Assembly: GCF_039555325.1 (NCBI RefSeq)
Contig: NZ_CP154608.1
Coordinates: forward strand, 2,232,001-2,296,000
Source: Sphingomicrobium sp. XHP0239
Lineage (GTDB): Bacteria > Pseudomonadota > Alphaproteobacteria > Sphingomonadales > Sphingomonadaceae
Direction of reading: 5' to 3'
DNA length: 64,000 nucleotides
Of this stretch, positions 14,062 to 37,450 are shown piece after piece (position 1 is the first letter of the stretch; each line of letters starts with the position of its first letter). Made by a program: the position numbers and the translations under genes. Under the pieces are notes generated by a model. It was not told where the DNA came from and made no database searches. It saw only the letters and a list, made by a program, of their open reading frames with translations.

Positions 14062-14550
14062 TTGATCAGTAATCGACAGAACCGCCGCCGCGGACGCGGT
14101 GGCCAGCGAGGCGGCCCCAATCCCTCGGGCAATCGCAATCGCGGTAACGCATCGCAGCTTCTCGAAAAGTACAAGGGCCTTGCGCGCGACGCGCAGATGC
14201 AGGGCGACCGCGTGCAAGCTGAATATTATCTCCAGTTCGCGGACCATTATCACCGCGTGCTCGAGGAAATGAACTCGTCCAAGGACGATCGTCAGCAGCA
14301 GAACCAGCAGCCTCAGAAGTCCAAGTCGTCCAAGCGCGATCGTGACGACGACGAGGATGACGATCAGCAGCAGCAGCAGCAGCAGCAGGACAAGCCCAAG
14401 CGGACGCGCAAGCCGAAGAGCGACGATAGCGGACCCAAATCCGAGGACAGTCCTCCCAAGAAACGTGGACGTCCCAAGAAGTCGGATGATGGCATCGCGG
14501 CTGACGCGCTGCCGCCCGCGATCAGCACCAACGAGGCCGACGCCGCCTAG
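14062..14550 (+). CDS. DUF4167 domain-containing protein
   Basis: 162 residues. The N-terminal basic segment (NRQNRRRGRGGQRGG) and the helical core (ASQLLEKYKGLARDAQMQGD, QAEYYLQFADHYHRVL) are the DUF4167 signature seen throughout alphaproteobacteria, where the gene follows prfA-prmC. The basic, RGG-like start suggests binding to nucleic acid, which is inference. The second half is a low-complexity tail: eight consecutive Gln codons, all CAG, at 14365-14388, then Lys/Arg/Asp/Ser-rich sequence with KKRGRPKKS resembling an AT-hook. The start is TTG at 14062 with AAGGG upstream; no ATG is available nearby. Its TAG stop shares CTAG with the stop of gspO. Confidence 0.88.
   Translation: MISNRQNRRRGRGGQRGGPNPSGNRNRGNASQLLEKYKGLARDAQMQGDRVQAEYYLQFADHYHRVLEEMNSSKDDRQQQNQQPQKSKSSKRDRDDDEDDDQQQQQQQQDKPKRTRKPKSDDSGPKSEDSPPKKRGRPKKSDDGIAADALPPAISTNEADAA
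14365..14388 (+). repeat. (CAG)8 trinucleotide tract
   Basis: Eight perfect CAG units encoding eight Gln in the DUF4167 protein. Length changes would keep the frame. Confidence 0.95.
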
Positions 14551-15299
14551 ATCCGGCCGTCGGCCAACAGGCAGGCGACGAGGAATGCGGCAGCGGCGAG
14601 CGCACTGCCGAGCGGATGCTCGTGGGTTCGTTCATGCACGCTGCCGCGTATCAGTGCGAGGGCGAGCAACGCGGCGCTGCCGATCAACAGGACGAGTGGG
14701 AGCATCGCCCAGCCCGTCCATAGGCCGATGGCCCCGAACAGTTTGGGGTCGCCTGCCCCCATTCCGTCGTGGCCGCGCAATCGTTGATAACCCCGCCGCA
14801 GCCCTTCGAGCAGCAGAAAAGCCGCGGCTCCGCCGATCAGTCTATCGGTCAGCGTGATTGCGGTGACCCATTGGGCTGCCGCCAGACCAATCCCCGCGAG
14901 CAGCAGCACGAGCGGATCGGGAAGCCAGAGGTGGCGCGCGTCGAGCCAGCCGAGCGCCAGCAGCAGCCACCCCATCGCCGCGAGCGCGAGGCCGGCCGCT
15001 TCGGGCAGAATGGCAAAGGCAGTAGCGCCGATCGCCGCGGCGCCGATTTCGATCCCGACGTGCGACCGCGCGATCGGCGCGTGGCAGGCTCGGCATCTCC
15101 CCCGCAGGACGACATAGCTGACGATCGGAACCAGTTCGATCGGCGAAAGCGTGCGCGCGCACCCATCGCAGGCGGAGCGCCCTGTCAGCGCGCCTTTCCC
15201 CTCGGGCCAACGCACGACCAGCGTTGCGAGAAAGCTGCCGACGATGGCGCCCAGCAAAATGCCTGACACGATCCAGCTGGCCGGCGACACGGCCTCCAC
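14547..15299 (-). CDS. gspO: prepilin peptidase / N-methyltransferase
   Basis: 250 residues, polytopic inner-membrane aspartic protease that cleaves and N-methylates the type II pseudopilins. The cytoplasmic loop carries the zinc-binding cysteines Cys44/Cys47 and Cys69/Cys72 (SACDGCA, GRCRACH). The catalytic aspartates are Asp120 (WLDARHLWLPDP) and Asp184 (GMGAGDPKLFG). Start GTG at 15299, 3 bp after gspN; last gene of the type II operon, so the processing enzyme is made with its substrates. Confidence 0.93.
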   Translation of the reverse strand: MEAVSPASWIVSGILLGAIVGSFLATLVVRWPEGKGALTGRSACDGCARTLSPIELVPIVSYVVLRGRCRACHAPIARSHVGIEIGAAAIGATAFAILPEAAGLALAAMGWLLLALGWLDARHLWLPDPLVLLLAGIGLAAAQWVTAITLTDRLIGGAAAFLLLEGLRRGYQRLRGHDGMGAGDPKLFGAIGLWTGWAMLPLVLLIGSAALLALALIRGSVHERTHEHPLGSALAAAAFLVACLLADGRI

Positions 15300-15302
15300 G
15301 TC

Positions 15303-16022
15303 CTATTGCAGTCGGCCGCGGCTCGACAGGGTCCAGCTGCCGCCGTCTAGTGTAAAGCCCGACGCACGCAGCGCCTCGCCGATCAAGGGCGAAGCGCCCT
15401 CAACGCTCAACATCGCTTCGGTCTCGCCCAGCGCGTCGATGTAGAGCGCGACGCTGGCCCCTCCACGGGGTCCCTGCAAGGTAGCGACGACCCGCCCGTC
15501 GTCGGCGCAGGCGACCGGGCCCGAAATCTCGCCCGCGAAATAGCGGACGGCGGCGGCGGGTATGGCCGTTACGGTTCCGGTGGCGGACTTGCAGGCGGTT
15601 CCGTCGAACAGCGCGTCGACCCCGTCGAAGAGCAGCGCGTCGATCGGCAAGGGCGCGACAAGGCCCGAGACATTGACGCGACCGTTGAGCGACGCGACGC
15701 CCTCGCTCGGCCCCGACAGGAAGAAACGGCCGGTCAGCGGGCCGTCGGGATCCTCGAGCCGCTCTACCGCCACTTCGGTACGCCCGATCAAAAGGGGCAG
15801 CGGGGCGAGATTGACGTCGAAGGTGCCGAGCCGCTCGCGGCCCAGCATCGCGTTGCCGATCCGCCCCGACCAAACGGTGCCGCCCACCTGTCGCGCCGAC
15901 AAAAGGCCATCGCGGCCGAGTGCCATGTCCATCGCCACGCGCAGCGGGAAAAAGGCGAGCAGCGCCAGCAGGAAGGCGACCAGCGTCCAGACGATCCAGC
16001 GGCGGCGTCCCCGAATGGTCAT
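15303..16022 (-). CDS. gspN: type II secretion system protein N
   Basis: 239 residues with one N-terminal membrane helix (residues 10-29, WIVWTLVAFLLALLAFFPLR) and a periplasmic beta-rich domain with repeated short strands, as in GspN. An accessory part of the inner-membrane platform. The sequence VGGTVWSGRIG resembles the conserved GspN region after the helix. The start overlaps the gspM stop in ATGA. Confidence 0.85.
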   Translation of the reverse strand: MTIRGRRRWIVWTLVAFLLALLAFFPLRVAMDMALGRDGLLSARQVGGTVWSGRIGNAMLGRERLGTFDVNLAPLPLLIGRTEVAVERLEDPDGPLTGRFFLSGPSEGVASLNGRVNVSGLVAPLPIDALLFDGVDALFDGTACKSATGTVTAIPAAAVRYFAGEISGPVACADDGRVVATLQGPRGGASVALYIDALGETEAMLSVEGASPLIGEALRASGFTLDGGSWTLSSRGRLQ

Positions 16023-16504
16023 GATGCGGCCTTTGCAAGGGTGAGGTCCAGCGCCACTCCGCCTTCGCCATTGTCGGTCATCGACATCGCCTCGACCACG
16101 ACGCCCGCGGCGCGCAACTGCTCGAGCCAGGCGAGCGCGGCGGCCGAGCGCGCCTGCGCGATCGAGACGTTCGTACGATCGGGGCCGGAAGCGCTGTTGC
16201 TGGTAAGCGCGAAGCCCGCCTGGTCGGCCGAGGTCGCGACGAACTGGTCCAGCGATGCATCGATGCGCATGGGTGCGGTCGCCGTCGTCGAGGGATCGCC
16301 GCCCATCGCTTCCGCGAGCGCCTTGACCCGGCCGTAGCGATCGCTCGACGCCACATAGGTTTCGCGCGCCTCGTCATGCCAGCTGACCGCGGGCGCGATG
16401 ATCAGGAACCAGGCAATGACCGGCACCGCGACGAGCGCGAGGATGCCGAACAGGATCTGTTCGCGGCGACTGCGTCCCCGCCACCAGTCCCGGATCGCGT
16501 TCAT
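16019..16504 (-). CDS. gspM: type II secretion system protein M
   Basis: 161 residues. A short cytoplasmic tail (MNAIRDWWRGRSRREQ) typical of GspM is followed by one membrane helix (about residues 17-37) and a periplasmic ferredoxin-like domain. It partners with GspL in the inner-membrane platform. It overlaps gspL by ATGA at 16501-16504 and gspN by ATGA at 16019-16022. Confidence 0.9.
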   Translation of the reverse strand: MNAIRDWWRGRSRREQILFGILALVAVPVIAWFLIIAPAVSWHDEARETYVASSDRYGRVKALAEAMGGDPSTTATAPMRIDASLDQFVATSADQAGFALTSNSASGPDRTNVSIAQARSAAALAWLEQLRAAGVVVEAMSMTDNGEGGVALDLTLAKAAS

Positions 16505-17610
16505 GCCGTTCCTCCACGGACGGTAAGGTCGATCATGGCGCGCCCCTGTCCGTCCGACAGGGGATTGGCCGCGACCGACCAGCCGCGCTGCTGAAGCCCC
16601 AGAAGCAGGCGGTTGAGCGTATCGACGTCGGGCGCCGTAAGGCGCGCGGTCAGCGAGCCGGTGGCGTCGAAGGACAGCATGCTGGCCTCGATGCTCGCCT
16701 CTCGTTCCATCTCGGCGAAAAGGCTGGTGAGCGCCTGGGTCCCCCGACCACCGAGACCCGTGCCTCCCTGGGCGGCCAGAAGTTCGGTTTCCGCACTCTC
16801 TGCCTCGACGGGTCGGCCCAGTGCAGCCGTCGCAATCGCTGCGGTTTCCCGGTCGAGGCTCTCGGTCGCGCTGTCCCAGCGGATCGCCTTGGCGATCGGA
16901 ATGACGAGCGCGAGCAACAGGATCAGCCCGATCAGCAGCGCGAATTCCTCCAGGCGGCGCGGATCGGGCGCCCAGCGCCGTGCCCGCGCGAACCGTCCGG
17001 TGCGAAGGTCGATCGGCGGGTTCGGGACGGCAGAAGCGAGGCGCGCGTCGAGATCTTCGGGATCGAGCGTGTCGACGAATTCGTCTCCGACCAGCGCATC
17101 GACCAGCGCAGGCTCGTCGGGGAGGGCGAGGCCGTCCCGCGCGACGATGACCCGTTCGCCGACTTTCGCCTCGATCCACTTGCCATTCACGGGAAGAAGC
17201 GCGGCGAGCGGCACGATCTGGTCGAGCTCCGCCTCTTGCGCCTGCGCCCAGTCGAGCCACCGGCGCATCGTCGCGCCGTCGGTCGTGGCGATCCAGCCGT
17301 TCGCGGCGTCGGCCGCCGCGACGACATGGGGGTCGGCGCCAAGAGCGGTGTCTTCGCCCTCCAGCCGTGCGACTCCGCGTACCTGCGGGCTGGCGAACCG
17401 GTCGGGGTCGGTCCGTTCGAGACGGACGCGTTCGGGCCCGACGAGGCCGATAAGGACGACCGGTTCGCGCCCGCTCTGCGCGCTCCGGGCAAGCCATCCC
17501 GAACCCATGCCGTGGCCAATCACCCTTCCCTCGGCGACTTCCCACCAAGGTGCGTCGGATAATGAGGCGTCGGGCGCATCGGGCAGGAGGATCAGGACGG
17601 CCTTGGTCAC
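16501..17610 (-). CDS. gspL: type II secretion system protein L
   Basis: 369 residues. A cytoplasmic actin-like domain at residues 1-220 (partner of the GspE ATPase), one membrane helix near residues 240-260 (FALLIGLILLLALVIPI) and a periplasmic ferredoxin-like domain. The start is taken as GTG at 17610: it forms GTGA with the gspK stop and has GGGG 9 bp upstream, while the ATG at 17625 has no visible ribosome-binding sequence and would give 374 residues. Confidence 0.88.
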   Translation of the reverse strand: MTKAVLILLPDAPDASLSDAPWWEVAEGRVIGHGMGSGWLARSAQSGREPVVLIGLVGPERVRLERTDPDRFASPQVRGVARLEGEDTALGADPHVVAAADAANGWIATTDGATMRRWLDWAQAQEAELDQIVPLAALLPVNGKWIEAKVGERVIVARDGLALPDEPALVDALVGDEFVDTLDPEDLDARLASAVPNPPIDLRTGRFARARRWAPDPRRLEEFALLIGLILLLALVIPIAKAIRWDSATESLDRETAAIATAALGRPVEAESAETELLAAQGGTGLGGRGTQALTSLFAEMEREASIEASMLSFDATGSLTARLTAPDVDTLNRLLLGLQQRGWSVAANPLSDGQGRAMIDLTVRGGTA

Positions 17611-18566
17611 GACGTGCTGCCCCATCGGCGCGCGTGCAGGATGGCGCGCCCGTCCTCGACCGAAAACAGCGCCTCCTGCCGCAATTCCGTATCCCCTTCG
17701 CCCACGCGGGTGACGAGCCGGAAGAAGCGCGTCTCCACCACGACCTGATTGTCGCGGCTGCCCTGGATGTCCCGCCCACGTAGCGGACCCGTTTCCCAGA
17801 AGTCCACAACCGAGCCGAACCCCGATGCGGGGCGCGCCTCCAGCTGGGCGGTGGCATCGGCGAGGCTGATCTGTTCCGGCGCCAGCATCGCGAGCAGCGC
17901 GGCGCGATCCGGCGACAGGGTTTCGACGTTGATGGGGGTGGGGTCCGTCGAAGGAAGTGCGCACAGATAGGGCCGGATTCGCGACCAGTATTCGGCATCC
18001 ATGCCTTCGATCCCGGCCAGTTCGTCGGCGCTCGTCAGAAGGCGATCGGGAACGGGTGCGCCATCGGCCAGCCGCTCGCTGCCGAGCGGTCGGGGGTTGC
18101 GATCGTCGTCGATGGCATCGCCCATCGCATCGGCGAGCTGTTGCGAGCGGCCTTCGGGAAGACCGAGGATGATGAAGAGGTCGCGTAGCTGGAAGACGCG
18201 GCGTGCCTGGCTTTGCAGCACGCCGGTCTGGCGACGGCGCACCATGCTGTTGACGTTGAAGCAATTGGTCGCATCTTCGAGCCGCGCGGTGACGATCTGC
18301 CCGTCGGGCAGGGTGATCGACCGTTCGACGCCCAACAGCGCAGCCTGATCGGCGCCCGAGAGTTCGGCGGCATCGGTGATGCGCGCCTGCGCCAGTTCCT
18401 CGGCCATCGTCAGCCAGTGGCGACCCTGTGTCGCGACGACGGCATTTCCCGCCAGCCGCGTCGACAGGCCGAGGCGATCGAGCGCGGTGGCGGCGATGGC
18501 GGCCATGACCGCGACGATCAACAAGACCGACAGCAAGGCGGTGCCGCGTTCCTTCGACGGGATCAT
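17607..18566 (-). CDS. gspK: type II secretion system minor pseudopilin K
   Basis: 319 residues. The N-terminus (MIPSKERGTALLSVLLIVAV) carries a prepilin cleavage site after Gly, with hydrophobic residues but without the Glu5 of other pseudopilins, as is usual for GspK. The long globular domain with the inserted helical region is characteristic. Forms the tip complex with GspI and GspJ. ATGA overlap with gspJ at 18563-18566. Confidence 0.9.
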   Translation of the reverse strand: MIPSKERGTALLSVLLIVAVMAAIAATALDRLGLSTRLAGNAVVATQGRHWLTMAEELAQARITDAAELSGADQAALLGVERSITLPDGQIVTARLEDATNCFNVNSMVRRRQTGVLQSQARRVFQLRDLFIILGLPEGRSQQLADAMGDAIDDDRNPRPLGSERLADGAPVPDRLLTSADELAGIEGMDAEYWSRIRPYLCALPSTDPTPINVETLSPDRAALLAMLAPEQISLADATAQLEARPASGFGSVVDFWETGPLRGRDIQGSRDNQVVVETRFFRLVTRVGEGDTELRQEALFSVEDGRAILHARRWGSTS

Positions 18567-19171
18567 GGCGTCACGCTCCGCTCCTCGAAGGCGACGCGCG
18601 GAAGAGCGACCACGAATTGCGTTTCGGGGAGCCGGTTTCCCGCCAGCGTCATCCGAACGGCGCGGGGCAGCGCCTCGCCACTGCCGTCGGGCCAGGCGCC
18701 GCTCCATCCGCCTCCGATGCCCCGGTATTCCAAGGCGAACGTGCTGACGTCATCGACGAGACGCGCATCCGGAAGGCGGTCGTCGTTGCCATCGACTTCC
18801 TCGAACGTGATGCGGGTCAGCGCGCCCCGGTCCAGGGTCCATCGCACGCGACGAAGGTCGGTCTGCGGCGCGGTATCGAGCGCGACCACGCCGCCGCGGA
18901 CGAAGGTCATGCCGTCCGCGCTGCCGACGAAGGCGGGTCGTTCGGCGCCGCCCGTGTCGCGCGTCGGACGGTCGGCGACCTGCGCGAGGTCGGCTTCGAG
19001 CAGGACGGAAATCCGCGTCAGATCGGCCTGTTCGCCGAGCGAGGCATCGACGGCCTGCTGGGTATCGGCGCTGGCCGACAGGAGGCCGACACCCGCGCTG
19101 GCGAGCAACGCGAAGATCGTCAGCCCGACGAGCATTTCGATCAGGGTGAAACCGTTGCGCTTGTCGATCAC
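18563..19171 (-). CDS. gspJ: type II secretion system minor pseudopilin J
   Basis: 202 residues. The type III signal is KRNG|FTLIEMLVGLTIFALL, with cleavage after Gly and Glu at mature position 5. The length of about 200 residues and a beta-rich C-terminal part agree with GspJ. Part of the tip complex I-J-K-H. ATGA overlaps at both ends. Confidence 0.9.
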   Translation of the reverse strand: MIDKRNGFTLIEMLVGLTIFALLASAGVGLLSASADTQQAVDASLGEQADLTRISVLLEADLAQVADRPTRDTGGAERPAFVGSADGMTFVRGGVVALDTAPQTDLRRVRWTLDRGALTRITFEEVDGNDDRLPDARLVDDVSTFALEYRGIGGGWSGAWPDGSGEALPRAVRMTLAGNRLPETQFVVALPRVAFEERSVTP

Positions 19172-19530
19172 GGTTCGATCCGCTTGACGGTCACGAGCCG
19201 TTGGGACGGGCCGGCGGGGAGCGGGCGCACGGTGATGACGACGGTCAGGAACCGCTCGTCGTCGGTGGGGCTGGTATTCGTGATGACCGCGAAGGTCTGG
19301 CCGCCGTTCACGACGTTCTTCGTCTCGGTGCCGCGCGTGGGGGCGCCGGGCATGGAAGCGATCAGCGCGGCCTCGTTGCTCGCGACAAGTCGCGCCATGT
19401 TGTTTTCGCGAAGATTGGACGCGGTGCCGACGGCGTAGGCGTCGATGCGCAGAAGGGCGAGCGCGGCGATCGAGAACACGCTGAGCGCGATCAGCATCTC
19501 GATGAGCGTGAAGCCGCGTTCGTGGCGCAT
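19168..19530 (-). CDS. gspI: type II secretion system minor pseudopilin I
   Basis: 120 residues. Prepilin signal RHERG|FTLIEMLIALSVFSIA, Glu at mature position 5. Small globular domain with ENNMARLVASNE, the region GspI proteins share (xNxxxAxxxAxN). Starts with ATG inside TGATG shared with the gspH stop; ends in ATGA with gspJ. Confidence 0.9.
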   Translation of the reverse strand: MRHERGFTLIEMLIALSVFSIAALALLRIDAYAVGTASNLRENNMARLVASNEAALIASMPGAPTRGTETKNVVNGGQTFAVITNTSPTDDERFLTVVITVRPLPAGPSQRLVTVKRIEP

Positions 19531-19997
19531 CAGTTGGCCTCGACCGCGCCGTTGGCGGCGACGGCGACCGTGGCGGTTCGTCCGTCCCCGTCCTCCAGAA
19601 CGATGACCGACGGAGCCGACGGGAGCCCCAGATTGTCGAAGCGAACCCCGGTGCGCGCGCCCTGCGCCGTCACGCCCGATCGAAAGGCGGTGCGTCCGTC
19701 GAAGCGCTGCCCGGACAGCGGCTGCCACTGGCGGTCGGCATATTGCTCGAAGGTGAAACCGGATGGGGTGACCCAGATGCCGGTCGGGCGCGAACGCATG
19801 ACGGCTTCGTCGCGCAGAGCGGCGATGCGACCCGCGAGCATGACCGCTTCGGTACGGGCGTGGTCCGAGGGGCGGAAGGTGAGGACGACTGCCGTCGCGG
19901 CAAGGCTCATCACCACCAACACGACCATCAGTTCGATAAGCGTGAAGCCGTTCGATCGGGATCGCGCCCTATTCGATGCCGGCGTAGATGTCCGCAT
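19530..19997 (-). CDS. gspH: type II secretion system pseudopilin H
   Basis: 155 residues from the ATG at 19997. Prepilin signal RSRSNG|FTLIELMVVLVVMSLA, Glu at mature position 5, then the GspH/FimT-like beta domain (RIAALRDEAVMRSRPTGIWV). Between the gspG stop and the signal sequence the frame offers no ATG, GTG or TTG, so the nearest start lies 29 bp inside gspG, giving an 18-residue leader. Forms the pseudopilus with GspG. Confidence 0.85.
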   Translation of the reverse strand: MRTSTPASNRARSRSNGFTLIELMVVLVVMSLAATAVVLTFRPSDHARTEAVMLAGRIAALRDEAVMRSRPTGIWVTPSGFTFEQYADRQWQPLSGQRFDGRTAFRSGVTAQGARTGVRFDNLGLPSAPSVIVLEDGDGRTATVAVAANGAVEAN

Positions 19998-20412
19998 TTT
20001 CGTCTTCGCCGCCCGGCTGGCCGTCGGCGCCGAGGCTGTAGATGTCGAAGGGGCGTCCGTCGCGACCGGGGGTCTGGACTTGGAACGGGCGGCCCCACGG
20101 ATCCTCGGGGATTTCGCGGACATAGCCGCCGGGGCGGTAGCGATCGGGCTGGGCGAGGCCGGCGGGGGGCGTGCGCAGGGCCTCGATCGTCGGGGGATAG
20201 CTGAAGTTGTCGATGCGATACTGCTCCATCGCATTTTCCAGCTGTGCGATATTGGCTTGCGCGGCGGTGCGCTGTGCTTGGTCCTGCGCGGGCAGGACGT
20301 TGAGCATCACGACCGTGCCGAGCAGCCCGATGATGACGATGACGACCATCAGCTCGATGAGAGTGAAGCCGTTCTTGCGCTTCTTTGAGGTCTTCTTGGC
20401 GGGCATGGGCAT
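19969..20412 (-). CDS. gspG: type II secretion system major pseudopilin G
   Basis: 147 residues. Very basic leader (KKTSKKRKNG) cleaved before FTLIELMVVIVIIGLL, Glu at mature position 5. The typical GspG elements follow: NIAQLENAMEQYRIDNFSYP, GYVREIPEDPWGRPF and a calcium-binding C-terminus (SLGADGQPGGEDENADI). Main subunit of the pseudopilus piston. ATG at 20412 within TGATG shared with the gspF stop; an in-frame ATG at 20406 is possible. Confidence 0.95.
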   Translation of the reverse strand: MPMPAKKTSKKRKNGFTLIELMVVIVIIGLLGTVVMLNVLPAQDQAQRTAAQANIAQLENAMEQYRIDNFSYPPTIEALRTPPAGLAQPDRYRPGGYVREIPEDPWGRPFQVQTPGRDGRPFDIYSLGADGQPGGEDENADIYAGIE

Positions 20413-21650
20413 CAGGTTCCGATCAGCGTTTGCAGTTGGAGAATGGGCATCAGGATCGCCAGGACGATGGCGGCGACGATCGCGCCCATGATGATGATGA
20501 TGAGCGGTTCGAGCAAGGCCAGCGCGCTGGTCGTGAAGGTGTCGAATTCGCGTTCGAGATAGTCCGCAGCCTGCCCGAGCATGGGCCCCAGCTGGCCCGC
20601 GCTCTCGCCCGAGGCGGTCAGGTGGACGAGCAAAGGGGGGAACATATTGGTCTTGCGCAGCGCCCCCGACAGGCTGCCCCCGCCGCGGACATCGACTTCC
20701 ATCTGGTGGGTGGCGACGGCGAGCTTGCGATTGGCGATGGTCCGCGCGGTGAGGCGCAGTCCCTCGACCAGGGGTAGGCGCGCGGCGACCATGGTGGCCA
20801 GCGTTCGCGCCATTCGAGCGGCGTTGAGATCGCGCAGAAGCCGCCCGAAGAAGGGCAGGCGCAGAATTGCGGCATCGAACCTGAGCCGGAACGCCTCGTT
20901 GCGGAGCGCAGCGATGGTCAGGAGGATGGCGGCGCCGAGAAACAAGAGGATGGCGATCCAGAAACTGGCGAGAAAATCGCTGATGGCGATCACGATCCGG
21001 GTGAGAAGCGGGAGTTGCTGCCCGACATCGTCGAACTGTTCGACGACCTTGGGCACGACCGCGATCATCAGCGCGGCGACGACACCGATGGCGACGACGG
21101 TCAGAACGGCGGGATAGGCAAGCGCACTGATGAGCTTGGAGCGCATTTCGGCCTGCCGCTCCTGCAGGGCGGCGAGGCGGTCCAACTGGTCGGACAGCGT
21201 ACCCGAGCTCTCGCCCGCGGCGATCATGGCGCGATAGAGGCCGTCGAAGCTTCGGGGTTCGCCCGAGAGTGCGTCGGCGAGGCGGCGGCCTTCGACGACC
21301 CGGTCGGCGATGCGGGTGACGATATCCTTGACCGCCTGCTTGTCCGTCTGGCGGGCGATGGTCCGCAACGCCTCCTCGATCGGCGACACCTTGATGAGGG
21401 TCGCGAGTTGGCGCGTGAAGAGGACCCGCTGCTTGGCGGAGAACTTGGGCTCCCCGCCGATGCGCATGTCGAGCGAGATGCCCGGTTTCGCAGGGGCGCT
21501 CGCCTTGCGGGTGGCGCAGCCGAGTTTGACGGGATGCAGATTTCTACGCTGAAGCTGCGTCCGGGCGGCGTCCTTGTCGGGCGCCCGAACGGTGCCACGT
21601 TTCTCGCGACCCCTGGCGTCGACCGCGACATAGGCGAAGTCGCTGGTCAT
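20412..21650 (-). CDS. gspF: type II secretion system inner membrane protein F
   Basis: 412 residues with two T2SSF domains (about 75-200 and 275-400) separated and followed by membrane helices. Conserved stretches include FTRQLATLIKVSPIEEALR, RPFDGLYRAMIAAGESSG-type sequence and LVHLTASGESAGQLGPML near the C-terminus. It forms the platform on which the pseudopilus is assembled. Start and stop both lie in TGATG overlaps. Confidence 0.95.
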   Translation of the reverse strand: MTSDFAYVAVDARGREKRGTVRAPDKDAARTQLQRRNLHPVKLGCATRKASAPAKPGISLDMRIGGEPKFSAKQRVLFTRQLATLIKVSPIEEALRTIARQTDKQAVKDIVTRIADRVVEGRRLADALSGEPRSFDGLYRAMIAAGESSGTLSDQLDRLAALQERQAEMRSKLISALAYPAVLTVVAIGVVAALMIAVVPKVVEQFDDVGQQLPLLTRIVIAISDFLASFWIAILLFLGAAILLTIAALRNEAFRLRFDAAILRLPFFGRLLRDLNAARMARTLATMVAARLPLVEGLRLTARTIANRKLAVATHQMEVDVRGGGSLSGALRKTNMFPPLLVHLTASGESAGQLGPMLGQAADYLEREFDTFTTSALALLEPLIIIIMGAIVAAIVLAILMPILQLQTLIGT

Positions 21651-23260: not shown

Positions 23261-25416
23261 CGCTCGTCTCCAATCATCGGCTCGGCAGCGGGGGGAACGG
23301 CGACCGCGTCGACGACCGCGGGCGGCCGGACGTAGATGTCGCCGGGACCGATCGGTGCGGCGGTCGGCGGGACGGTGCCGAGATAGTCGCGCACGAGGCT
23401 GTCCAGCGAGGGTTCGACGTTGGGATTGTTGGCCCATTGCGAGGCCCGCATGAAGTTGTAGCGGCGCGCGGTCATGGCCGCGGCGTCGTCGCGATCGCGG
23501 ATGATCGTCGGGCGGATGAAGACCATGAGGTTGGTTTTGGACCGCGAGCGCGAGCGCGACTTGAACAGTTCGCCGAGGATCGGAATGTCGCCCAGCAACG
23601 GGATCTTCTCGATCGTGTTGCGCTCGCTGTCGTCGAGCAGGCCGCCGATGGCGACGATCTCGCCATTGTCGACGGTGACGACATTTTTGAATTCGCGCTT
23701 GTTGATGATGAGATCGGACGAGCCCGAGGCCACGGGGCCGGCGACCGAGCTGACTTCCTGACGGATGAACAGCTTGATCGAGCCAGAGCTGTTCACCTGC
23801 GGTTTGACGTCGAGCTGGATACCGACGTTCTGGCGCTGGACCGTCCGGAAGGCATTGTCGAAATTGCTCGAGAGCGCTTCGCCGGTGGTGATCGGGACTT
23901 CCTGACCGACCAGCAGGTTCGCTTCCTGGTTATCGAGCGTCATCGTCGAGGGAGTGGAGAGCAGGTTGCTCTCGGTATCGGCTTCGACCGCGTTGATGAT
24001 CGCGCCGAACAGCGCATTGCCCGCAAGATTGATGACCCCGCCCGCGATTCCGCCCCGCGTCGCCAGCGCGGACTGGACCGCGGCTTCGGTCACGCCGTTG
24101 CCGAGCGGACTGTCGATCGTGGTGGTGACGACGCCGTCGTCGGTGACCGCGGTCTCGCGGCCCAGCTCGTAGTTCGCCACCGCCCCGCCGATGGCCAGGA
24201 TGTTGGGCTGTGCGTTGGAATAGGTGGTGCCGAGGATCGGCGTGTTCTCGCCGGCGAGCAGGAACTGCGTGGACAGCTGGCGTGCGGCGGTGTCGCCGAT
24301 CTCGACGATGATCGCTTCGATCAGCACCTGTTCGCGGCGCGTGTCGAGCTGGCGGATGACTTCGCCGATCTGGCGCTGCACGCTGGCGTTGGCGGCGACG
24401 ATGATGGCGTTGGTGCCGGTGTAGCGGGTCACGACGGCGGGCCCGAAGCGGGCAATGCCGTTCGAGGCGTTGCCGGTGGAGGCGGGCGCAATGCCGCTCA
24501 AGGGCGGAACGGGCTGCGATGTCGGGCCCGCGCCCGTGCCTTCCTCGTCCTGCGTGGTGATGAAGGCAGGCGCGTCGGTCTGGATCGTGACCGGCTGGCC
24601 GAGCAGTTGCTGGATGACGGGCAGCATCGCTTCGGCGTCGGCATGTTCGAGGAAGTAGACGCGGATGTCGCTTCCGCCTGCGGCCTGGCTGTCCAGTTCG
24701 CGCGCAAGGCGGGCATATTCGGCGACCGCGGGGGCGGGGCCGCGGAGCGCGAGGCCGTTGGCGCTGTCGATCGGCGACACCGCGACCGGGGCGCCGATGA
24801 CACCTTCGCCGTTGAGACCGGACAGCGCCTCCGCCACTTCGCGTGCGCCCGCGTTCGAAAGATAGACGATGTCGGTCGAGGAATTATCGGCATCGATGCG
24901 ACCGATCAGGTTGCGGATGCGCACGACATTGTCGGCAAAGTCGGCGACGATGACGGTGTTGGCATTGCGGTTGGCCGTGATCTCGCCTTCCTGACTGATC
25001 AGCGGGCGGAGCGTCTCCAGGGCCCCCGCCGCATCGATGGTCCGCAGCCGGAAGATCTCGGTGACGAACTCGTTGCGTGCCGCGCCGCGCACGCCCAGCT
25101 GGCTCGGCTGGGTCGCAGCACCCTGCGCGGGCTGGATTCGATAGCCACCCGAAATGGGAATGGCGACGAGGCCATTGGAGCGCAGCGTCGACAAGAACAG
25201 CTCGAAATATTCCGATCGGCTGAGCGAACGTTGCGAGACGACGCTGACGGTCTGGTTGACGCGGCTGTCCACCACGAAGGTCAGTCCGGTCACGCGCGCG
25301 GCATCGTCGACGACCGCTCGAATATCGGCCTCCCGGAAGTTCAACGCATATTGCGCATAGGCGGGCTGGGCGGTCATCAGCATCGCGGCCGACAGGAGGA
25401 GGAGGGATTTCTTCAT
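23257..25416 (-). CDS. gspD: type II secretion system secretin D
   Basis: 719 residues, outer-membrane channel. Signal peptide MKKSLLLLSAAMLMTAQPAYA is followed by the N0 domain (ALNFREADIRAVVDDAARVTG), repeated KH-like N1-N3 domains (TVIVADFADNVVRIRNLI, NAIIVAANASVQRQIGEVI) and the secretin core (LLSTPSTMTLDNQEANLLVG; VPLLGDIPILGELFKS-type signature). An Asn/Thr/Pro-rich linker lies near residue 340. The Pro-rich C-terminus may bind a pilotin, though none is seen here. 25 bp after gspC. Confidence 0.95.
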   Translation of the reverse strand: MKKSLLLLSAAMLMTAQPAYAQYALNFREADIRAVVDDAARVTGLTFVVDSRVNQTVSVVSQRSLSRSEYFELFLSTLRSNGLVAIPISGGYRIQPAQGAATQPSQLGVRGAARNEFVTEIFRLRTIDAAGALETLRPLISQEGEITANRNANTVIVADFADNVVRIRNLIGRIDADNSSTDIVYLSNAGAREVAEALSGLNGEGVIGAPVAVSPIDSANGLALRGPAPAVAEYARLARELDSQAAGGSDIRVYFLEHADAEAMLPVIQQLLGQPVTIQTDAPAFITTQDEEGTGAGPTSQPVPPLSGIAPASTGNASNGIARFGPAVVTRYTGTNAIIVAANASVQRQIGEVIRQLDTRREQVLIEAIIVEIGDTAARQLSTQFLLAGENTPILGTTYSNAQPNILAIGGAVANYELGRETAVTDDGVVTTTIDSPLGNGVTEAAVQSALATRGGIAGGVINLAGNALFGAIINAVEADTESNLLSTPSTMTLDNQEANLLVGQEVPITTGEALSSNFDNAFRTVQRQNVGIQLDVKPQVNSSGSIKLFIRQEVSSVAGPVASGSSDLIINKREFKNVVTVDNGEIVAIGGLLDDSERNTIEKIPLLGDIPILGELFKSRSRSRSKTNLMVFIRPTIIRDRDDAAAMTARRYNFMRASQWANNPNVEPSLDSLVRDYLGTVPPTAAPIGPGDIYVRPPAVVDAVAVPPAAEPMIGDER

Positions 25417-25441
25417 GGCGTTGGCTGCCTGCTGAAAGGAT

Positions 25442-26251
25442 CTAGAGGGTGACCGCGACGGGGACGGTCGATCCCCCGCGTTCGACTTGGAGCGAAAGGC
25501 GCGCGCCGGGTTTGAGCGCGGCCTGGAACTGGGCGATGTCCGACTGGCTGTCGACGGGGACGCCATTGACGGAGACGATCACGTCGCCCTGGCGCAGGCC
25601 ATAGACCGCCATGAGAGCGGGTTCGGCACTGACGGGAAGGCGGATGCCGGTGATGCGACCGCCCGACTGGCGCGGCTGGAAATCCAGATCGGGGACCGAT
25701 GCGGAGGCGGCCGTCGTGTTGCCGCCCTCGCCGGCGGAAGCCGTATTTTCAGCGCCGGCTTCGGGTTCGGCTCCTTCGAAATACAGCCGCTCGCGGACGC
25801 CACCGCGATCGAGTGTCACATAGTCGAAGGCGACTGCGGCGAGCGTCACGCCGGGCGCGACTTCGTCGCCGACCTGATAGCTCGCCTGTTCGCCGTCGGC
25901 GCCGGCGATGATCGCGCTGCCCATGCCGGTACCGCGATTCTCGCGGGTTCCGAACAATTCCAGGTCGAGGTCGGTGACGGCTTCGCCGCCGACGCTGGTG
26001 GTGGCGGCCTGTTGTTGGGGGAACGGGTCGTAGCGGTTGAGCAATTCGCTTTGCGCCGCCGCCGGAAGCAGGCGGGGGCTGGCCGCCTGCCAGTCCCCGA
26101 TGGGTCCGACGGGGGTCGCAAAGACCCAGACGAGGCGCGCGGCGAAGGCGGCGAGAACGGCGAGAAGCAGGGCGCGCGCGACGACGTGCGCCTGCGCAAA
26201 GGTCAGTCGATCGCGGCGCCCGGGGCGCGTGCGGAGAATCGAACCGAACAT
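25442..26251 (-). CDS. gspC: type II secretion system protein C
   Basis: 269 residues. Short basic N-terminus, one membrane helix (about 25-46), the HR domain (AIIAGADGEQASYQVGDEVAPGV, then VTLDRGGVRERLYF) and a C-terminal PDZ domain (YGLRQGDVIVSVNGVPVDSQ). It links the inner-membrane platform to the secretin and helps choose substrates. First gene of the operon; GGGAAGGG lies 11 bp upstream of the ATG. No convincing promoter is visible in the 85 bp upstream to the terminator-like hairpin. Confidence 0.9.
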   Translation of the reverse strand: MFGSILRTRPGRRDRLTFAQAHVVARALLLAVLAAFAARLVWVFATPVGPIGDWQAASPRLLPAAAQSELLNRYDPFPQQQAATTSVGGEAVTDLDLELFGTRENRGTGMGSAIIAGADGEQASYQVGDEVAPGVTLAAVAFDYVTLDRGGVRERLYFEGAEPEAGAENTASAGEGGNTTAASASVPDLDFQPRQSGGRITGIRLPVSAEPALMAVYGLRQGDVIVSVNGVPVDSQSDIAQFQAALKPGARLSLQVERGGSTVPVAVTL

Positions 26252-26336
26252 GGATACGAAAACCCTTCCCTGCCATAGGGATGCGTGGCATCGATGACAG
26301 TTTCAAGACATGTTTTTGATAGTTTTGTGAAAGCAG

Positions 26337-26370
26337 ACGGGACCGCGATCCGGTTGGAAGGCGGTCCCGT
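26337..26370 (-). terminator. hairpin after the TonB receptor gene
   Basis: A perfect 10-bp inverted repeat, ACGGGACCGC (26337-26346) and GCGGTCCCGT (26361-26370), lies 38 bp past the receptor stop. On the minus strand only a short CTGCTTTC tract follows, so it is a weak intrinsic terminator or an mRNA 3' end stabiliser. Confidence 0.55.
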
Positions 26371-26407
26371 CGTTCGGTCAGAAGTTCGGCGGAGCGCAGT
26401 CGCGACC

Positions 26408-29191
26408 CTAGAACGTCAGGGTGCCCGACAGATTGAAGGTGCGGCCGCGATCATAGGTGAGGATATTGAGAACGCTGTCGTTGAGCGTCTGCGTTTCCTC
26501 GTAATCGGTGCCGAGCAGGTTTCGTGCTTCGGCCTTCAGTTCGAGGCCGGGCCCGTTGCTGCCGAGTTCGATGCCTTCGCGGATGACCACGTCGAGCTGG
26601 ACGCCGGGCCGTTCGATGAAGTCCGGGGTGCGGTTGGGGCCGCGGTTGGTCACGCGATCGGACGCGTAGGTCAGGAGGAGCGTCTGCTGCGACAGCCGAT
26701 CCTCGTGTTCCAGCCCCAGCTGGACGTTAACGAGGTGCTCCGACTGTCCGGTCAGCGGCACGCCGTCGGCGAACACCGTGCTGGCGAGGACGCTGTCGGG
26801 CTGGCTAGTGAAGCTGATGGTCGTATCGTCGGGACCGACGACGATCTCGGAATTGGTGTAGGTATAGTTGGTGATTAGCGCGATCCGGCGGGGGCCGAAG
26901 AAGCCCTCTGTCGTCCCCAGGTCGTCGAAGGGGAGATATTTCCGGAATTCGACTTCGGCGCCGTAGAGTTGGGCCCGGGGCGCGTTCGCGAAGCTGGTGA
27001 GCGAGGTCGACCCGATATTCGTGGCGATCGCTTCGATCGGATCGGAGATGTCCTTGTAGAAGCCTGCGAGGCTGAAGATCTGGTCGCGGCCGAAATAATA
27101 TTCGTAGCGCGCGTCGAGGTTGAAGATCTCGCTGTCGGTGAGGAACTGGTTGCCGAAGAAGGTCCGCTGCGATTCGAAATCGACATAGGGCTGCGGCGCG
27201 AGTTCGCGGAACTGCGGGCGAGCGATCGTCTTCGAAGCGCCTAGGCGCAGCTGCATGTCGTCGGCGAAATTCCAGGTAACCGTCCCAGCGGGAAGCCAAT
27301 AGTCGCGCTCCAGCGTGGTGGCCTGCGCGGCGGGTTGCCCGAAGAGGATCAGCGGCGTGACCGTCTGGGTGCCCTGTTCGTAGCGCACGCCCGCATTGAT
27401 CAGAACGTCGCTCGCGGGTTCGACCTCGACCATTCCGTAGCCGGCGATCGTTTCCAGTCCCGCATCATAGGCCGCCGAACCAAGACCACCGGTCGTTTCG
27501 CGGATCGCGATGTCGTAGGTGAAGACGTTGTAGTCCGAGAGCAGATAGTCGATGCGGGTCTGCGCCACGACCGGGCTGAGTGCCCGGTTGGGGAAGAACT
27601 CGAAGTCGCGCCGGATCGCCGAACGGCTGTTGTCGGAATAGGCAAATCCTGCCGACAGGGTGACCGGCATGGCGGTGGGCAGGTAATAGGCGACGTCCGC
27701 AGCGCCGAACCAGAGCTCGTCGTCCAGTTCGGAGAAGCTCACGTCCGCTTCGTTGCCAGGCGAGCGCAGGTCGTTGACGTAGTCGTTGACGCTGGCGTCG
27801 TAGACGTAGCTGTAGCTGCGCTCGTACGGGCTGTCGCGCCGCGTCTTGGCGTAGGAGCCGCGCAGATCGAGGCTGAGGTCGCCAAATTCGAGTTCGGCGA
27901 CGGCTTGCGCATTGTAGAGTTCGCGCTCGAAGTAGCTGGTCCCGCCGGTCTGCAGCGTCGGGATGGCGGGATCGACGGGCGATACCGATTCCAGATCCTC
28001 GCCGAGGCTGATCTGCGCTTCCTTCAACGCATCGCGGATGTAGAGGCCGGTGAGGCGGAGCTGCTGGTCGCCGAGATTGAAGACCAGGCTGCCGAGGCCG
28101 TTCACGATGACGCGGTTCTGCGTCGAGGTGTAGAGGAAGCTCTGCTCGGCGAGCAGCTCGGCATCGGGCAGGGTCGGGTCGCCGAGCGAGTTGCCGAATT
28201 CGCGAAAGCCCTGCCGGGTGCGCCAGCTGTTCGAGATGCCGCCGACCGCGATCACGCCCAGATCGAGCGCCCCCAGTTCGAACGTCTCGCCCGCTCCGAT
28301 GTCGGCCGACCAGTTCACGGGAACGTCGTAGGTCGTCTGGATCAGCGAGGTCGAGGCATTGTCGAGACTGGCGGTCAGGTTCTGGAGATCGGTGAAGCTG
28401 AAGGCCTCCGATTCGACGAGGCGGTTGCCGCTATCGAGCGCGGCCCGGAAGGTATTGGAAAGCGTGCGGTTGCCGTCGTCGTAGCCGAGAAAGTCGGTCG
28501 CGCTGCCGTAGTAGGTATAGCCGAGGTTGAGGCTGGTCTCGGTGTCGAAACCGATGCCGCCGCCCACGGAAAGGAAACCTTCTTCCGGCGCCGAACGGGT
28601 GGTCAGGTTGATGACCCCGCCGCCGAACTCGCCCGGATAATTGGCCGAATAGCTTTTCTGAACGACCGTCGAGGCGATGACCGACGTCGGAAACAGATCG
28701 AGCGGAACGACGCGGCGCAGCGGCTCGGGGCTGGGCAACGGAGCGCCGTTGAGCAGCGCCGAGCTATAGCGCTCCCCCAGGCCGCGCACGTAGACGAAGC
28801 GCCCTCCCACGACCGAAAGACCCGTCACCCGTTCGAGTGCAGAGGCGATATCGCCGTCGCCGCTGCGGGCGATGTCCTCGGCGGACAGCACAGATACGAC
28901 TTCGGGCGTCGCGCGAACTGGGCTGGGGATATAGGTGCCGCGGATGATGATTTCCTCGCCGCGATCCGCACCGGGGCTCGAGATTTCGACCGTGCTCTCC
29001 GGCGGTGTGTCGTCGGCTCCCGGCTGGACGGCGTCGAGCGTGTCCTGCTGCGCGGCTTCATCGTCGGGGTCGCCGACCTGGCTGGCCGAGGGCGAGGAGG
29101 GGGGCGTGCCCGCATCCTGCGCGAAGGCCGTCGCGGGAACGAGCAGCGCAGTGGTCGCGAGCAGGGCGCAGAGCGTCTGAGGCTTGGTCAT
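26408..29191 (-). CDS. TonB-dependent receptor paired with beta-helix lipoprotein
   Basis: 927 residues. Signal peptide (MTKPQTLCALLATTALLVPA), a long acidic Pro/Ser-rich stretch, then a plug domain (SAEDIARSGDGDIASALERV, RFVYVRGLGERYSSALLNGA, YPGEFGGGVINLTTRS) and a beta barrel ending in ILTYDRGRTFNLSGTLTF with a terminal aromatic residue, as outer-membrane insertion requires. No clear FecA-type signalling domain. The start at 29191 has GGAAG at good spacing; an ATG at 29206 also fits. It is downstream of the lipoprotein gene, same strand, after a hairpin. Ligand unknown; the upstream Pho-box-like site hints at a phosphorus source. Confidence 0.9.
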   Translation of the reverse strand: MTKPQTLCALLATTALLVPATAFAQDAGTPPSSPSASQVGDPDDEAAQQDTLDAVQPGADDTPPESTVEISSPGADRGEEIIIRGTYIPSPVRATPEVVSVLSAEDIARSGDGDIASALERVTGLSVVGGRFVYVRGLGERYSSALLNGAPLPSPEPLRRVVPLDLFPTSVIASTVVQKSYSANYPGEFGGGVINLTTRSAPEEGFLSVGGGIGFDTETSLNLGYTYYGSATDFLGYDDGNRTLSNTFRAALDSGNRLVESEAFSFTDLQNLTASLDNASTSLIQTTYDVPVNWSADIGAGETFELGALDLGVIAVGGISNSWRTRQGFREFGNSLGDPTLPDAELLAEQSFLYTSTQNRVIVNGLGSLVFNLGDQQLRLTGLYIRDALKEAQISLGEDLESVSPVDPAIPTLQTGGTSYFERELYNAQAVAELEFGDLSLDLRGSYAKTRRDSPYERSYSYVYDASVNDYVNDLRSPGNEADVSFSELDDELWFGAADVAYYLPTAMPVTLSAGFAYSDNSRSAIRRDFEFFPNRALSPVVAQTRIDYLLSDYNVFTYDIAIRETTGGLGSAAYDAGLETIAGYGMVEVEPASDVLINAGVRYEQGTQTVTPLILFGQPAAQATTLERDYWLPAGTVTWNFADDMQLRLGASKTIARPQFRELAPQPYVDFESQRTFFGNQFLTDSEIFNLDARYEYYFGRDQIFSLAGFYKDISDPIEAIATNIGSTSLTSFANAPRAQLYGAEVEFRKYLPFDDLGTTEGFFGPRRIALITNYTYTNSEIVVGPDDTTISFTSQPDSVLASTVFADGVPLTGQSEHLVNVQLGLEHEDRLSQQTLLLTYASDRVTNRGPNRTPDFIERPGVQLDVVIREGIELGSNGPGLELKAEARNLLGTDYEETQTLNDSVLNILTYDRGRTFNLSGTLTF

Positions 29192-29226
29192 CGGGAAATC
29201 TTCCATCGGCTTTTCTGGATACGATG

Positions 29227-29256
29227 GGGGAGCGGCCACCGGTGGCGCCGCTCCCC
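29227..29256 (-). promoter_or_regulatory. intercistronic hairpin between lipoprotein and TonB receptor genes
   Basis: GGGGAGCGGC (29227-29236) pairs with GCCGCTCCCC (29247-29256), and the loop itself contains the palindrome CACCGGTG. No T-run follows on the minus strand. It may attenuate or stabilise, giving more lipoprotein than receptor. Confidence 0.5.
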
Positions 29257-29278
29257 GATACGAAAGAGGGCTGGAGCC

Positions 29279-30814
29279 CTAGTCGTCGGAACCGGCGCCG
29301 GGCACGGTCAGGCAGCTTTCCTGACCCGCAAGACCGCAGGTCCAGCCCCGCCACCAGTCGTCGTTGGCGTCGCGGACCGCGCCGATGTAATCGACGGCCT
29401 CGAAGAAATCGCCGTTCTCGAGCTCGGTCGGATCGGCCGCCTCGACGGCATTCTCGTTGGCGCCGTTGATGAAGGTGTCGGTCAGCGAGTTCGTGAACGA
29501 CGTGTCGTTATTGTCATCGGCATCGAAGAGCGCCTGGATCTGCGCCACGGTCACCGGAGCGTTGGTTACGAACGGGTTGGCACCGCAGTCGAGCACGACC
29601 GACTTGATGCGCGGTGCGCCCAGTTCGTCGGAGCGGTTGGTTCCAGATTCCGTGACGGTGGCTTCTTCGTCGAACCCGATGCACGGCCCTTCGGCAACGA
29701 TCACGCCATTGTAGAGCGCGAAGTCGGCAGCGCCGCGAATGTTGAGATACTCGTCGCTCTGCGGAGTGACGAACGTGAAGTTCGCAATCTCCCAGTTGGT
29801 GCCGGGTTCGTTGTCCTGGTTGCCGGGGCTGTCGATCTCGGCCAGCTTGTCGCCGCCGTCGGCGCGCTGGATCACGATCGCGAACTGCGTGCCGCCCTGA
29901 TAGCCGACGTCGGCGTCGAGCGAGTCGTCGTCGTTGCCGGTCAGGACCAGCCACTTGTTGTTCACCGTGCCGCCGAACCATTCGATGCCGTCGTCCGAAC
30001 CGTTGTGGACCTGGACATGTTCGAAGATCGTGCCCGCGCCGACGCCGCCGAGCGTGATCCCGTTCAGCTCGTTGTTGGCGTCGACTTCGAAGCCCGCGTA
30101 GCGAACCTGCAGATATTCGATCCGGCCCGAGGAATCGTTGGCATCGCCGCCGCCGTAGAGCGAACCGGATGTGCCTTCGACGGGCAGGCCGCAAGGCGCA
30201 GCGGCGCAACCTTCGCCGGGCGCCTGGCCGAGGAGGACGAGCCCGCCCCACTGGCCGATCGAGCTTTCGTTGGCGGTGCCGAGGACGTTCTGGCGGCTGG
30301 TCATCACGACGGGGCTGTCCGCCTCGCCGTCGACGATGAGCTGCGAACCGCGGTTGACCGCGAGGAAGTCCGCGCCCGCCGAGCCGAAGATGGTCACGCC
30401 GTCTTCGATGGTCAGGATGGCGGTATCGCCTGCGCCACCGGCGGCACCGTCGTCGATGCCGACCTCGACCTTGCCCGACAGCGAATAGATCGTGCCGTCG
30501 TTGTTGGGGAGGAAGAGGTCCTGCGTAATGCGACCCGAAAGCTGGCACACGCGCCGCTCGTCATCGGCATTGCCGCCGACGTCGATGGTGCCGACGTTCG
30601 CGGTACCCATCGGGCAGTTGGCCGCGGGGCCACCGGTCGGGGTGGGGGTCGGCGTAGGCGTGGGCGTCGGGGTCGGCGTGGGGGTCGGTGTCGGCGTCGG
30701 AACGACGATCACCCCTTCGCCGGGCGAGGCGACGTCGTCGGCGCCGCAGGCACCGAGGGCGCCGGCAGCGGCACTGAGAAGCAGGACGTTGCGAATGGTC
30801 TTCAGGTTGGTCAT
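29279..30814 (-). CDS. outer-membrane lipoprotein with Pro-Thr repeat tether and beta-helix-like domain
   Basis: 511 residues from the ATG at 30814 (GGAG 7 bp upstream; ATG 30817 is adjacent). Lipobox LGAC with Gly at +2, which favours the outer membrane. Right after the lipidation site comes a Pro-Thr repeat of about 11 units (PTPTPTPT), a typical surface spacer. The rest has motifs QWGGLVLLGQAPG, RIEYLQVRYAGFEVDANNELN, TLGGVGAGTIFEHVQVHNGSDD and EWFGGTVNNKWLVLTGNDDDS, a parallel-beta-helix-like pattern also known from Bacteroidetes surface proteins. Paired Cys suggest disulphides. Function not known; its partner is probably the TonB receptor downstream. Confidence 0.8.
   Translation of the reverse strand: MTNLKTIRNVLLLSAAAGALGACGADDVASPGEGVIVVPTPTPTPTPTPTPTPTPTPTPTGGPAANCPMGTANVGTIDVGGNADDERRVCQLSGRITQDLFLPNNDGTIYSLSGKVEVGIDDGAAGGAGDTAILTIEDGVTIFGSAGADFLAVNRGSQLIVDGEADSPVVMTSRQNVLGTANESSIGQWGGLVLLGQAPGEGCAAAPCGLPVEGTSGSLYGGGDANDSSGRIEYLQVRYAGFEVDANNELNGITLGGVGAGTIFEHVQVHNGSDDGIEWFGGTVNNKWLVLTGNDDDSLDADVGYQGGTQFAIVIQRADGGDKLAEIDSPGNQDNEPGTNWEIANFTFVTPQSDEYLNIRGAADFALYNGVIVAEGPCIGFDEEATVTESGTNRSDELGAPRIKSVVLDCGANPFVTNAPVTVAQIQALFDADDNNDTSFTNSLTDTFINGANENAVEAADPTELENGDFFEAVDYIGAVRDANDDWWRGWTCGLAGQESCLTVPGAGSDD
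30638..30702 (-). repeat. tandem repeat encoding (Pro-Thr)n
   Basis: About eleven imperfect 6-bp units, alternating GTCGGG, GTGGGC and similar on the plus strand, encoding Pro-Thr dipeptides in the lipoprotein. Units differ at third positions, so the protein repeat is more regular than the DNA repeat, which suggests selection on the peptide. Confidence 0.9.
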
Positions 30815-30960
30815 CATTTTTCTCCGCTTGCGGCGGTGGACAGGAACGATGATCGACAAAACGGAAAGGCAGCCCCCGCTTGCGCCGAACTCGACTTCGG
30901 CCGCTACGGGGTCAGTTTGACGCGATCATGCCGGTCCGATGACGCGAAGGTATCGGCTGC

Positions 30961-30978
30961 GTGACGGTGGGATGACGG
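30961..30978 (-). promoter_or_regulatory. Pho-box-like direct repeat
   Basis: Read on the minus strand: CCGTCAT, 4 bases, CCGTCAC. Two 7-mers with an 11-bp period match the enterobacterial Pho box (CTGTCAT-N4-CTGTCAC) at 12 of 14 conserved positions. A partial third unit, CCGATAC, follows with the same period at 30956-30950. It lies 147 bp upstream of the lipoprotein start and beyond the end of the thioesterase gene, so it would control the lipoprotein-receptor pair. Confidence 0.5.
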
Positions 30979-32538: not shown

Positions 32539-34031
<1,493 letters not shown>

Positions 34032-34082
34032 CATGGCGGTAGATTTAGCTCACGCTAATCTCCTCCTGTCCAAAGAACATTG

Positions 34083-34106
34083 CCGCCGTCCTCATGTCCC
34101 TTCATT
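34083..34106 (+). other. 16S rRNA processing stem, 3' arm
   Basis: CCGCCGTCCTCATGTCCCTT and the following CATT are complementary to 32305-32328. Confidence 0.85.
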
Positions 34107-34191
34107 TCGGAACGCTTCCTCGAGCAATCGGGGGAGTTAGCCTGAGCTGGCTTATGCCGCCTGCGGCCTCGTTGCCGGTCAGGATTGGTAT

Positions 34192-34268
<77 letters not shown>

Positions 34269-34282
34269 GCACTTTCTGGTCA

Positions 34283-34358
34283 GGGGCCTTAGCTCAGCTG
34301 GGAGAGCACCTGCTTTGCAAGCAGGGGGTCATCGGTTCGATCCCGATAGGCTCCACCA
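34283..34358 (+). tRNA. tRNA-Ala (TGC)
   Basis: 76 nt. The acceptor stem GGGGCCT pairs with AGGCTCC and contains the G3:U70 wobble that marks tRNA-Ala; anticodon TGC in TTTGCAA; CCA encoded. 14 bp after tRNA-Ile. Confidence 0.97.
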
Positions 34359-34635: not shown

Positions 34636-34662
34636 AGAGGACTGTCGATGGTGGTGTGGATT

Positions 34663-34670
<8 letters not shown>
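34636..34670 (+). other. 23S rRNA processing stem, 5' arm
   Basis: AGAGGACTGTCGATGGTGG and the following bases to CTCAAGCG pair with 37451-37484 over almost the whole length. Confidence 0.85.

Positions 34671-37450
<2,780 letters not shown>

Follow-up and report, generated by a model that had tools for sequence, protein, structure and literature searches.

The window analysed here, 64,000 nucleotides of Sphingomicrobium sp. XHP0239 (contig NZ_CP154608.1, positions 2,232,001 to 2,296,000) that form part of the single 2.42 Mb contig of this genome, carries on its minus strand an ElpS-type lipoprotein gene (LIP, 29279-30814; 511 amino acids, with an alternative in-frame ATG at 30817), a gene for a TonB-dependent receptor (TBDR, 26408-29191; 927 amino acids) in the place that cc0171 occupies in Caulobacter, and a type II secretion operon, gspC to gspO (14547-26251), which follows the pair on the same strand in the order also seen in Caulobacter and Sphingomonas alaskensis. 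Pho-box-like repeats precede LIP (box 1, 30961-30978, minus strand, CCGTCATCCCACCGTCAC) and lie in the 156-bp gap between TBDR and gspC (box 2 array, 26294-26333, minus strand; best site 26294-26311, ATGTCTTGAAACTGTCAT, second site 26316-26333). An initial annotation of this DNA had placed the three gene blocks and box 1 at these coordinates, which domain and profile matches confirm, and had proposed that LIP is a phosphate-controlled type II cargo that captures a phosphorus compound together with the receptor. The genome encodes PhoB (above cut-off), and the frames around phoB read as phoR, pstS, pstC, pstA, pstB and phoU.

First, the lipoprotein and the receptor form a constant pair. Conservation was followed in two samples, namely 147 genomes of the order (LIP called at E <=1e-10, gspD at E <=1e-60 and GspF at E <=1e-20) and the 80 best of 547 named loci; the two samples have three genomes in common (G065/L172, G068/L242 and G144/L232). 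LIP occurs in 82 of the genomes, and the receptor lies directly downstream of it at all 79 loci that can be judged, the other three running off their contig; among the named loci the same holds for 78 of 80, the remaining two (L186, L218) again running off the contig. Chance neighbourhood was therefore rejected (79/79 and 78/78 judgeable loci): the lipoprotein-receptor pair is the unit that stays together, and its two genes are presumably transcribed jointly. The receptor has a Plug and a barrel domain, both above the Pfam cut-offs and the only two domains found in it. Relatives of LIP include proteins of Sphingopyxis, Sphingobium, Novosphingobium, Brevundimonas, Phenylobacterium, Asticcacaulis, Hyphomonas, Luteimonas and Xanthomonas; two from Phenylobacterium are 45% identical to it, and relatives with the gene order of the window were found in Phenylobacterium and Brevundimonas. 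A class-wide profile search, with 9 of 385 genomes positive at E <=1e-20 (the window's genome included), shows only that LIP is patchy. The LIP body is duplicated in tandem (mostly about 880-1000 amino acids) at L082, L089, L099 and the majority of the order's loci in families other than that of the window, which gives two matches per genome; the receptor is still next and gsp genes mostly follow. G002, with one body only, departs from this pattern. The lipoprotein frame of L209 (Xanthomonas arboricola) ends early, at 219 amino acids, while the homology continues beyond it.

Second, the type II genes are attached to this pair more loosely. The linkage of gsp genes to the pair is frequent, not constant. 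Overall gspD was detected in 73 of the 147 genomes; of the 82 LIP genomes, 45 have it on the same strand at most 15 kb away (upstream in two of them), 13 have it elsewhere or on a separate contig, and in 24 it was not found. For the 48 LIP genomes of the window's family the corresponding counts are 16, 9 and 23. The pair thus stands away from gspD in 37/82 genomes of the order and 32/48 of the family, and its Pho boxes are nonetheless conserved. In all 23 gspD-less family genomes GspF was not found either, and all 23 retain LIP, the receptor and a LIP box of at least 12 bits; G092, a gspD-less genome of another family, does have GspF, and the assembly may have missed its gspD. The named loci show gspD downstream in 25 cases, gsp genes upstream in 7 and none in 35, with contigs too short in 13. 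Among five sampled congeners LIP was found in none and gspD in one (G094), which carries gspC-O at the same place, beside matches to prfA, prmC and the DUF4167 gene of the window, with LIP and the receptor absent. The pair and the type II machine are associated, yet separable both ways.

Third, the predicted Pho boxes assign each unit its own promoter signal. The scoring matrix was built from pstS promoters of the family. Of 30 loci, 28 could be anchored (L165 and L169 lack the anchor motif), and each of the 28 has its top-scoring site on the strand of the gene; 27 sites were used, L156 being omitted as weak. One of the 27 comes from the window's own genome and was left out when the window, the TAG motif and the named loci were scored, so that the sites used there are from other genera. 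The training sites were chosen for their resemblance to a consensus Pho box. With this matrix, the two best sites of the whole window are the gspC box at 26294-26311 (19.3 bits) and the LIP box at 30961-30978 (14.9 bits), the latter 144-161 bp ahead of the alternative LIP start (30817) and followed by weaker half-site repeats; the second gspC site (26316-26333) scores 12.3 bits. The initial annotation had recognised the LIP repeat and overlooked the stronger box before gspC. Two sites of at least 13 bits compare with a mean of 1.57 in 100 dinucleotide shuffles (0.46 at 15 bits or more), and none of the 100 shuffles yields a site of at least 19 bits; neither the LIP box alone nor the number of sites is significant, and the weight lies in their place and conservation. 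Across the genome, a generic Pho pattern with at most one mismatch has 16 matches, which include the box before gspC and a pair of overlapping sites at pstS, versus 2 for the reversed control. Of the Pho-like sites genome-wide, those of pstS and gspC are clear, some others precede frames read as TonB receptors or a transporter, and the rest are intragenic or away from genes. L265 and L267, from the same genome, are frames read as TonB receptors with Pho-like repeats at or near their starts. A covariance model built from Pho-box sequence alone proved too weak in a genome-wide search and was discarded, its one match being the pstS promoter at E 3.44.

Conservation of the boxes follows the same two positions. 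In the window's family, a box of at least 11 bits precedes LIP in 44/48 genomes and gspC in 14/16, as compared with 0/48 for the receptor and 21/960 control windows; for the other families of the order the figures are 19/33 (LIP), 6/28 (gspC), 3/30 (receptor) and 18/620 (controls). These genome counts cover 81 of the 82 loci, leaving out G014, whose contig does not include the start, and G097, whose contig starts inside LIP, is counted as a miss. Among the named loci, boxes precede LIP in 62/76 and gspC in 21/29, and the receptor (0/78), gspE (0/39) and gspF (0/29) in none, in counts made without the overlong stretches of L215, L216, L226 and L236 (contig starting near or inside LIP) and, for gspF, of L180. 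The two family genomes that miss a gspC box, G135 and G122, are represented there by GspC-like matches of 27-28% identity lying upstream of LIP; where gspC adjoins LIP in the family, 14/14 have a box of at least 12 bits, and the gsp genes away from LIP in G135 and G122 keep a gspC box of 20.4 and 13.7 bits, respectively. Behind the last half-site, 20 of 31 distinct gspC promoters have a TAG at +11 to +13, compared with 0 to 2 at any other offset to +29; the TAG would be placed as expected of a -10 element. Phosphate control, as initially proposed, gains support from the sequence comparisons, and the boxes of the window are predicted PhoB-binding sites. At L187, L196, L204 and L208, from some Sphingobium and Sphingomonas, the gsp genes lie upstream of LIP on the other strand, with gspC boxes of 9.7 to 20.2 bits.

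What might the lipoprotein do? LIP has a lipobox (LGAC, Cys23) and, behind it, the initially described Pro-Thr tether (residues 38-60; 30635-30703, minus strand), whose length and composition vary among relatives. Nine cysteines (23, 67, 90, 203, 208, 378, 410, 493 and 501) are each conserved in 68 to 70 of 70 aligned members, of which one would be lipidated and the other eight are probably engaged in disulfides. At thirteen positions, 95% or more of the rows have an acidic residue, and nine of these (274, 275, 278, 295, 296, 297, 300, 302 and 326) are Asp or Glu in 70/70 rows and fall within residues 274-326 (29837-29995, minus strand). Such a strip suggests a metal site and disfavours the binding of bare phosphate; the spacing of the acidic groups, some 20 to 30 residues, could be compatible with the coils of a beta helix. 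The beta-helix-like body of the initial annotation is itself weakly supported, by a Pfam Beta_helix match in 1/70 members at E 0.005. The window's LIP has no Pfam match and no convincing match in the PDB, its best PDB match being dismissed for aligning to the low-complexity tether, and SusD-type Pfam domains were found neither in it nor in the 70 members. LIP might also be a glycan-binding or glycan-cleaving beta helix of the pectin-lyase type, the fold denoted by IPR011050, with a receptor that imports (phosphorylated) glycans and a phosphate control that stems from the use of phosphorus-bearing polymers. Flavobacterium relatives of ElpS have indeed been modelled on a polygalacturonase, and one of them, FII, is listed under IPR011050 (PMC8115612); the best NCBIfam match of the receptor, moreover, is TIGR01782, the Xanthomonas-Caulobacter TonB group, although below its cut-off. 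Nevertheless, no carbohydrate-enzyme Pfam domain was found among the 70 members at E 0.01, and we regard a glycan role as unlikely.

The closest precedent is in Caulobacter, where elpS (cc0170), cc0171 and gspC-N follow one another; comparable arrangements are named for Sphingomonas alaskensis, Hyphomonas neptunium and Xanthomonas campestris (PMC2996285). ElpS is produced under phosphate starvation, lipidated and surface-exposed, being accessible to proteinase K even in a gspC-N deletion, whereas its release is type II-dependent and sensitive to a protease inhibitor; a joint role of lipoprotein and receptor in phosphate uptake was already suggested by its authors (PMC2996285). According to a 2024 study, the PhoB regulon of Caulobacter takes in its type II system as well as several TonB receptors (PMC11208175). 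The precedent invoked by the initial annotation, that ElpS is secreted by the type II system, thus applies in its gene arrangement and fails in its route, since ElpS depends on the type II system for its release only (PMC2996285). Judged by gene order and relatives, LIP is probably orthologous to ElpS.

Taken together, we consider, at a probability of roughly 0.6, that the window's cluster is the sphingomonad counterpart of the Caulobacter cluster, in which the surface lipoprotein-receptor pair and the type II operon are adjoining units, each controlled by PhoB. Phosphate starvation would switch on production of LIP, which, once lipidated at Cys23 and delivered to the outer membrane, would reach the surface along a path that does not involve the type II system. 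There, the tethered protein would work with the receptor in binding and importing a phosphorus-containing or metal-bound ligand. The type II operon, from its own Pho box, would secrete other proteins, among them, by the Caulobacter precedent, a factor that sheds LIP. The pair is independent of the operon for its presence and, on the best reading of the Caulobacter data, would also be independent of it for reaching the surface. The reading further presumes that LIP contacts the receptor, that it binds a metal and that a phosphorus compound is taken up.

Several observations weigh against this two-unit reading. The LIP box of the window is of moderate strength (14.9 bits), a clear TAG at the usual place is absent from both window promoters (LIP and gspC), and LIP boxes are weaker outside the window's family (19/33). 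The LIP box is missed at 14/76 named loci, including 3/3 Brevundimonas, 2/2 Asticcacaulis, 1/2 Phenylobacterium and Luteimonas; the sphingomonad-trained matrix transfers poorly to these genera, though ElpS itself is phosphate-induced. Where gsp genes lie away from LIP, the gspC box is often weak or missing (below 8 bits in G116, G125 and G064, 8.7 in G110 and 10.0 in G094). A terminator-like stem follows LIP at 29280-29267, one of 3 such stems in the region versus a shuffle average of 3.7. In Caulobacter, cc0171 was reported to be constitutive, unlike elpS, and its deletion to leave ElpS production intact (data not shown in PMC2996285). The acidic strip would be expected to repel free phosphate unless a metal bridges the two. 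On the receptor tree (FastTree, 78 rows, with a long-branch warning, built without the fragment G099 and three receptor-less loci), gsp adjacency requires at least 9 changes and type II absence 2, so the type II-less lineages amount to few independent events. Finally, LIP and gspD co-occur, gspD being present in 58/82 genomes with LIP versus 15/65 without it (odds ratio 8, which ignores relatedness), and some link between LIP and the type II system is therefore likely.

This last link is what one would expect if LIP were a true type II cargo, crossing the outer membrane through the adjoining gsp machine in the manner of pullulanase and only then partnering the receptor, as the initial annotation had it. 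The proximity of gspD, in the 45/82 genomes above and downstream in 25 of the 67 named loci that could be judged, the toxicity of ElpS overexpression when the type II system is absent (PMC2996285) and an Asp at +2 in 9/70 members point the same way, Asp +2 being an inner-membrane retention signal according to the ElpS paper (PMC2996285). But the residue at +2 is Gly in 54/70 members, including the window (C23-G24), while Cys23 itself is present in 70/70. Because 23/48 LIP-bearing genomes of the family are without a detectable type II system and ElpS reaches the surface in the gspC-N deletion (PMC2996285), we lowered the standing of the cargo model, which now appears improbable. Lineages that lack a type II system and keep both the pair and its Pho box are natural tests of the idea.

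Within the two-unit reading, a more specific and still tentative proposal, doubtful on present evidence, is that the pair constitutes a capture machine analogous but unrelated to SusCD. Phosphorus compounds, for example calcium phosphate, phytate or polyphosphate, would bind through a metal bridge to the acidic strip on a tethered beta helix and be passed to the receptor, and the separately PhoB-driven type II system would supply enzymes and a shedding protease. The likeness to SusC-SusD of Bacteroidota is confined to the working idea of a surface lipoprotein with a TonB transporter; membership in that family was rejected, LIP being without SusD domains and the receptor having plug and barrel only. 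Alternatively, LIP may activate or carry a secreted phosphatase, as proposed for ElpS, leaving the receptor merely to import the products. Overexpression of elpS raises phosphatase activity in the supernatant; its deletion, on the other hand, leaves the activity unchanged, and purified or immunoprecipitated ElpS has none, findings that also sit awkwardly with the phosphate-linked role favoured here (PMC2996285). As a local candidate PhoX was discarded, a search for PhoX only, and not for other phosphatase families, having given no match in the genome. We judge a phosphatase carrier very unlikely.

How does the window differ from its relatives? The kind of system and its gene arrangement are already known from Caulobacter, with a lipobox lipoprotein, a TonB receptor, gspC onward, a link to phosphate and type II genes in the PhoB regulon, and the window's cluster adds a sphingomonad member. 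In Caulobacter, in contrast, gspO is oriented oppositely (PMC2996285), whereas in the window it shares the strand of gspC-N; the Pro-Thr tether of LIP is a further difference from ElpS. In Flavobacterium, ElpS-related, phosphate-induced lipoproteins FI and FII are encoded in clusters with TonB transporters, designated phosphate utilisation systems III and IV, and FIII is an orphan gene; gsp genes are not mentioned in the available portions of that paper (PMC8115612). New here, as far as licensed PMC papers show, are the constant pairing, the separate and conserved LIP and gspC boxes in sphingomonads, the TAG behind gspC boxes, the type II-free lineage that retains the pair, and the acidic strip. 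The Hxc system of Pseudomonas is also a phosphate-controlled type II system, differing in lineage and cargo from that of the window. The roles of ElpS and cc0171 were left open in 2010, and no later answer was found in the licensed PMC literature; the acidic strip and the Pho boxes offer directly testable targets.

The operon itself, all on the minus strand, is recognised gene by gene through Pfam or NCBIfam with the exception of gspL. It comprises gspC (25442-26251; T2SSC above cut-off), the secretin gene gspD (23257-25416; TIGR02517, 531.9 bits), the ATPase gene gspE (21650-23257; TIGR02533, 622.1 bits, slightly below the cut-off of 630.25), gspF (20412-21650), gspG (19969-20412), gspH (19530-19964), gspI (19168-19530), gspJ (18563-19171), gspK (17607-18581), gspL (16501-17630), gspM (16019-16504), gspN (15303-16022) and the prepilin peptidase gene gspO (14547-15299). 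The genes gspF, gspG, gspJ, gspK and gspN are assigned by profile matches, and the starts of gspH, gspI, gspL and gspM are approximate; gspL, for which no Pfam match was found, is assigned from its position alone. Upstream of the thioesterase and LIP genes, an rRNA operon (32540-37858) on the plus strand comprises 16S, two tRNAs, 23S, 5S and one further tRNA.

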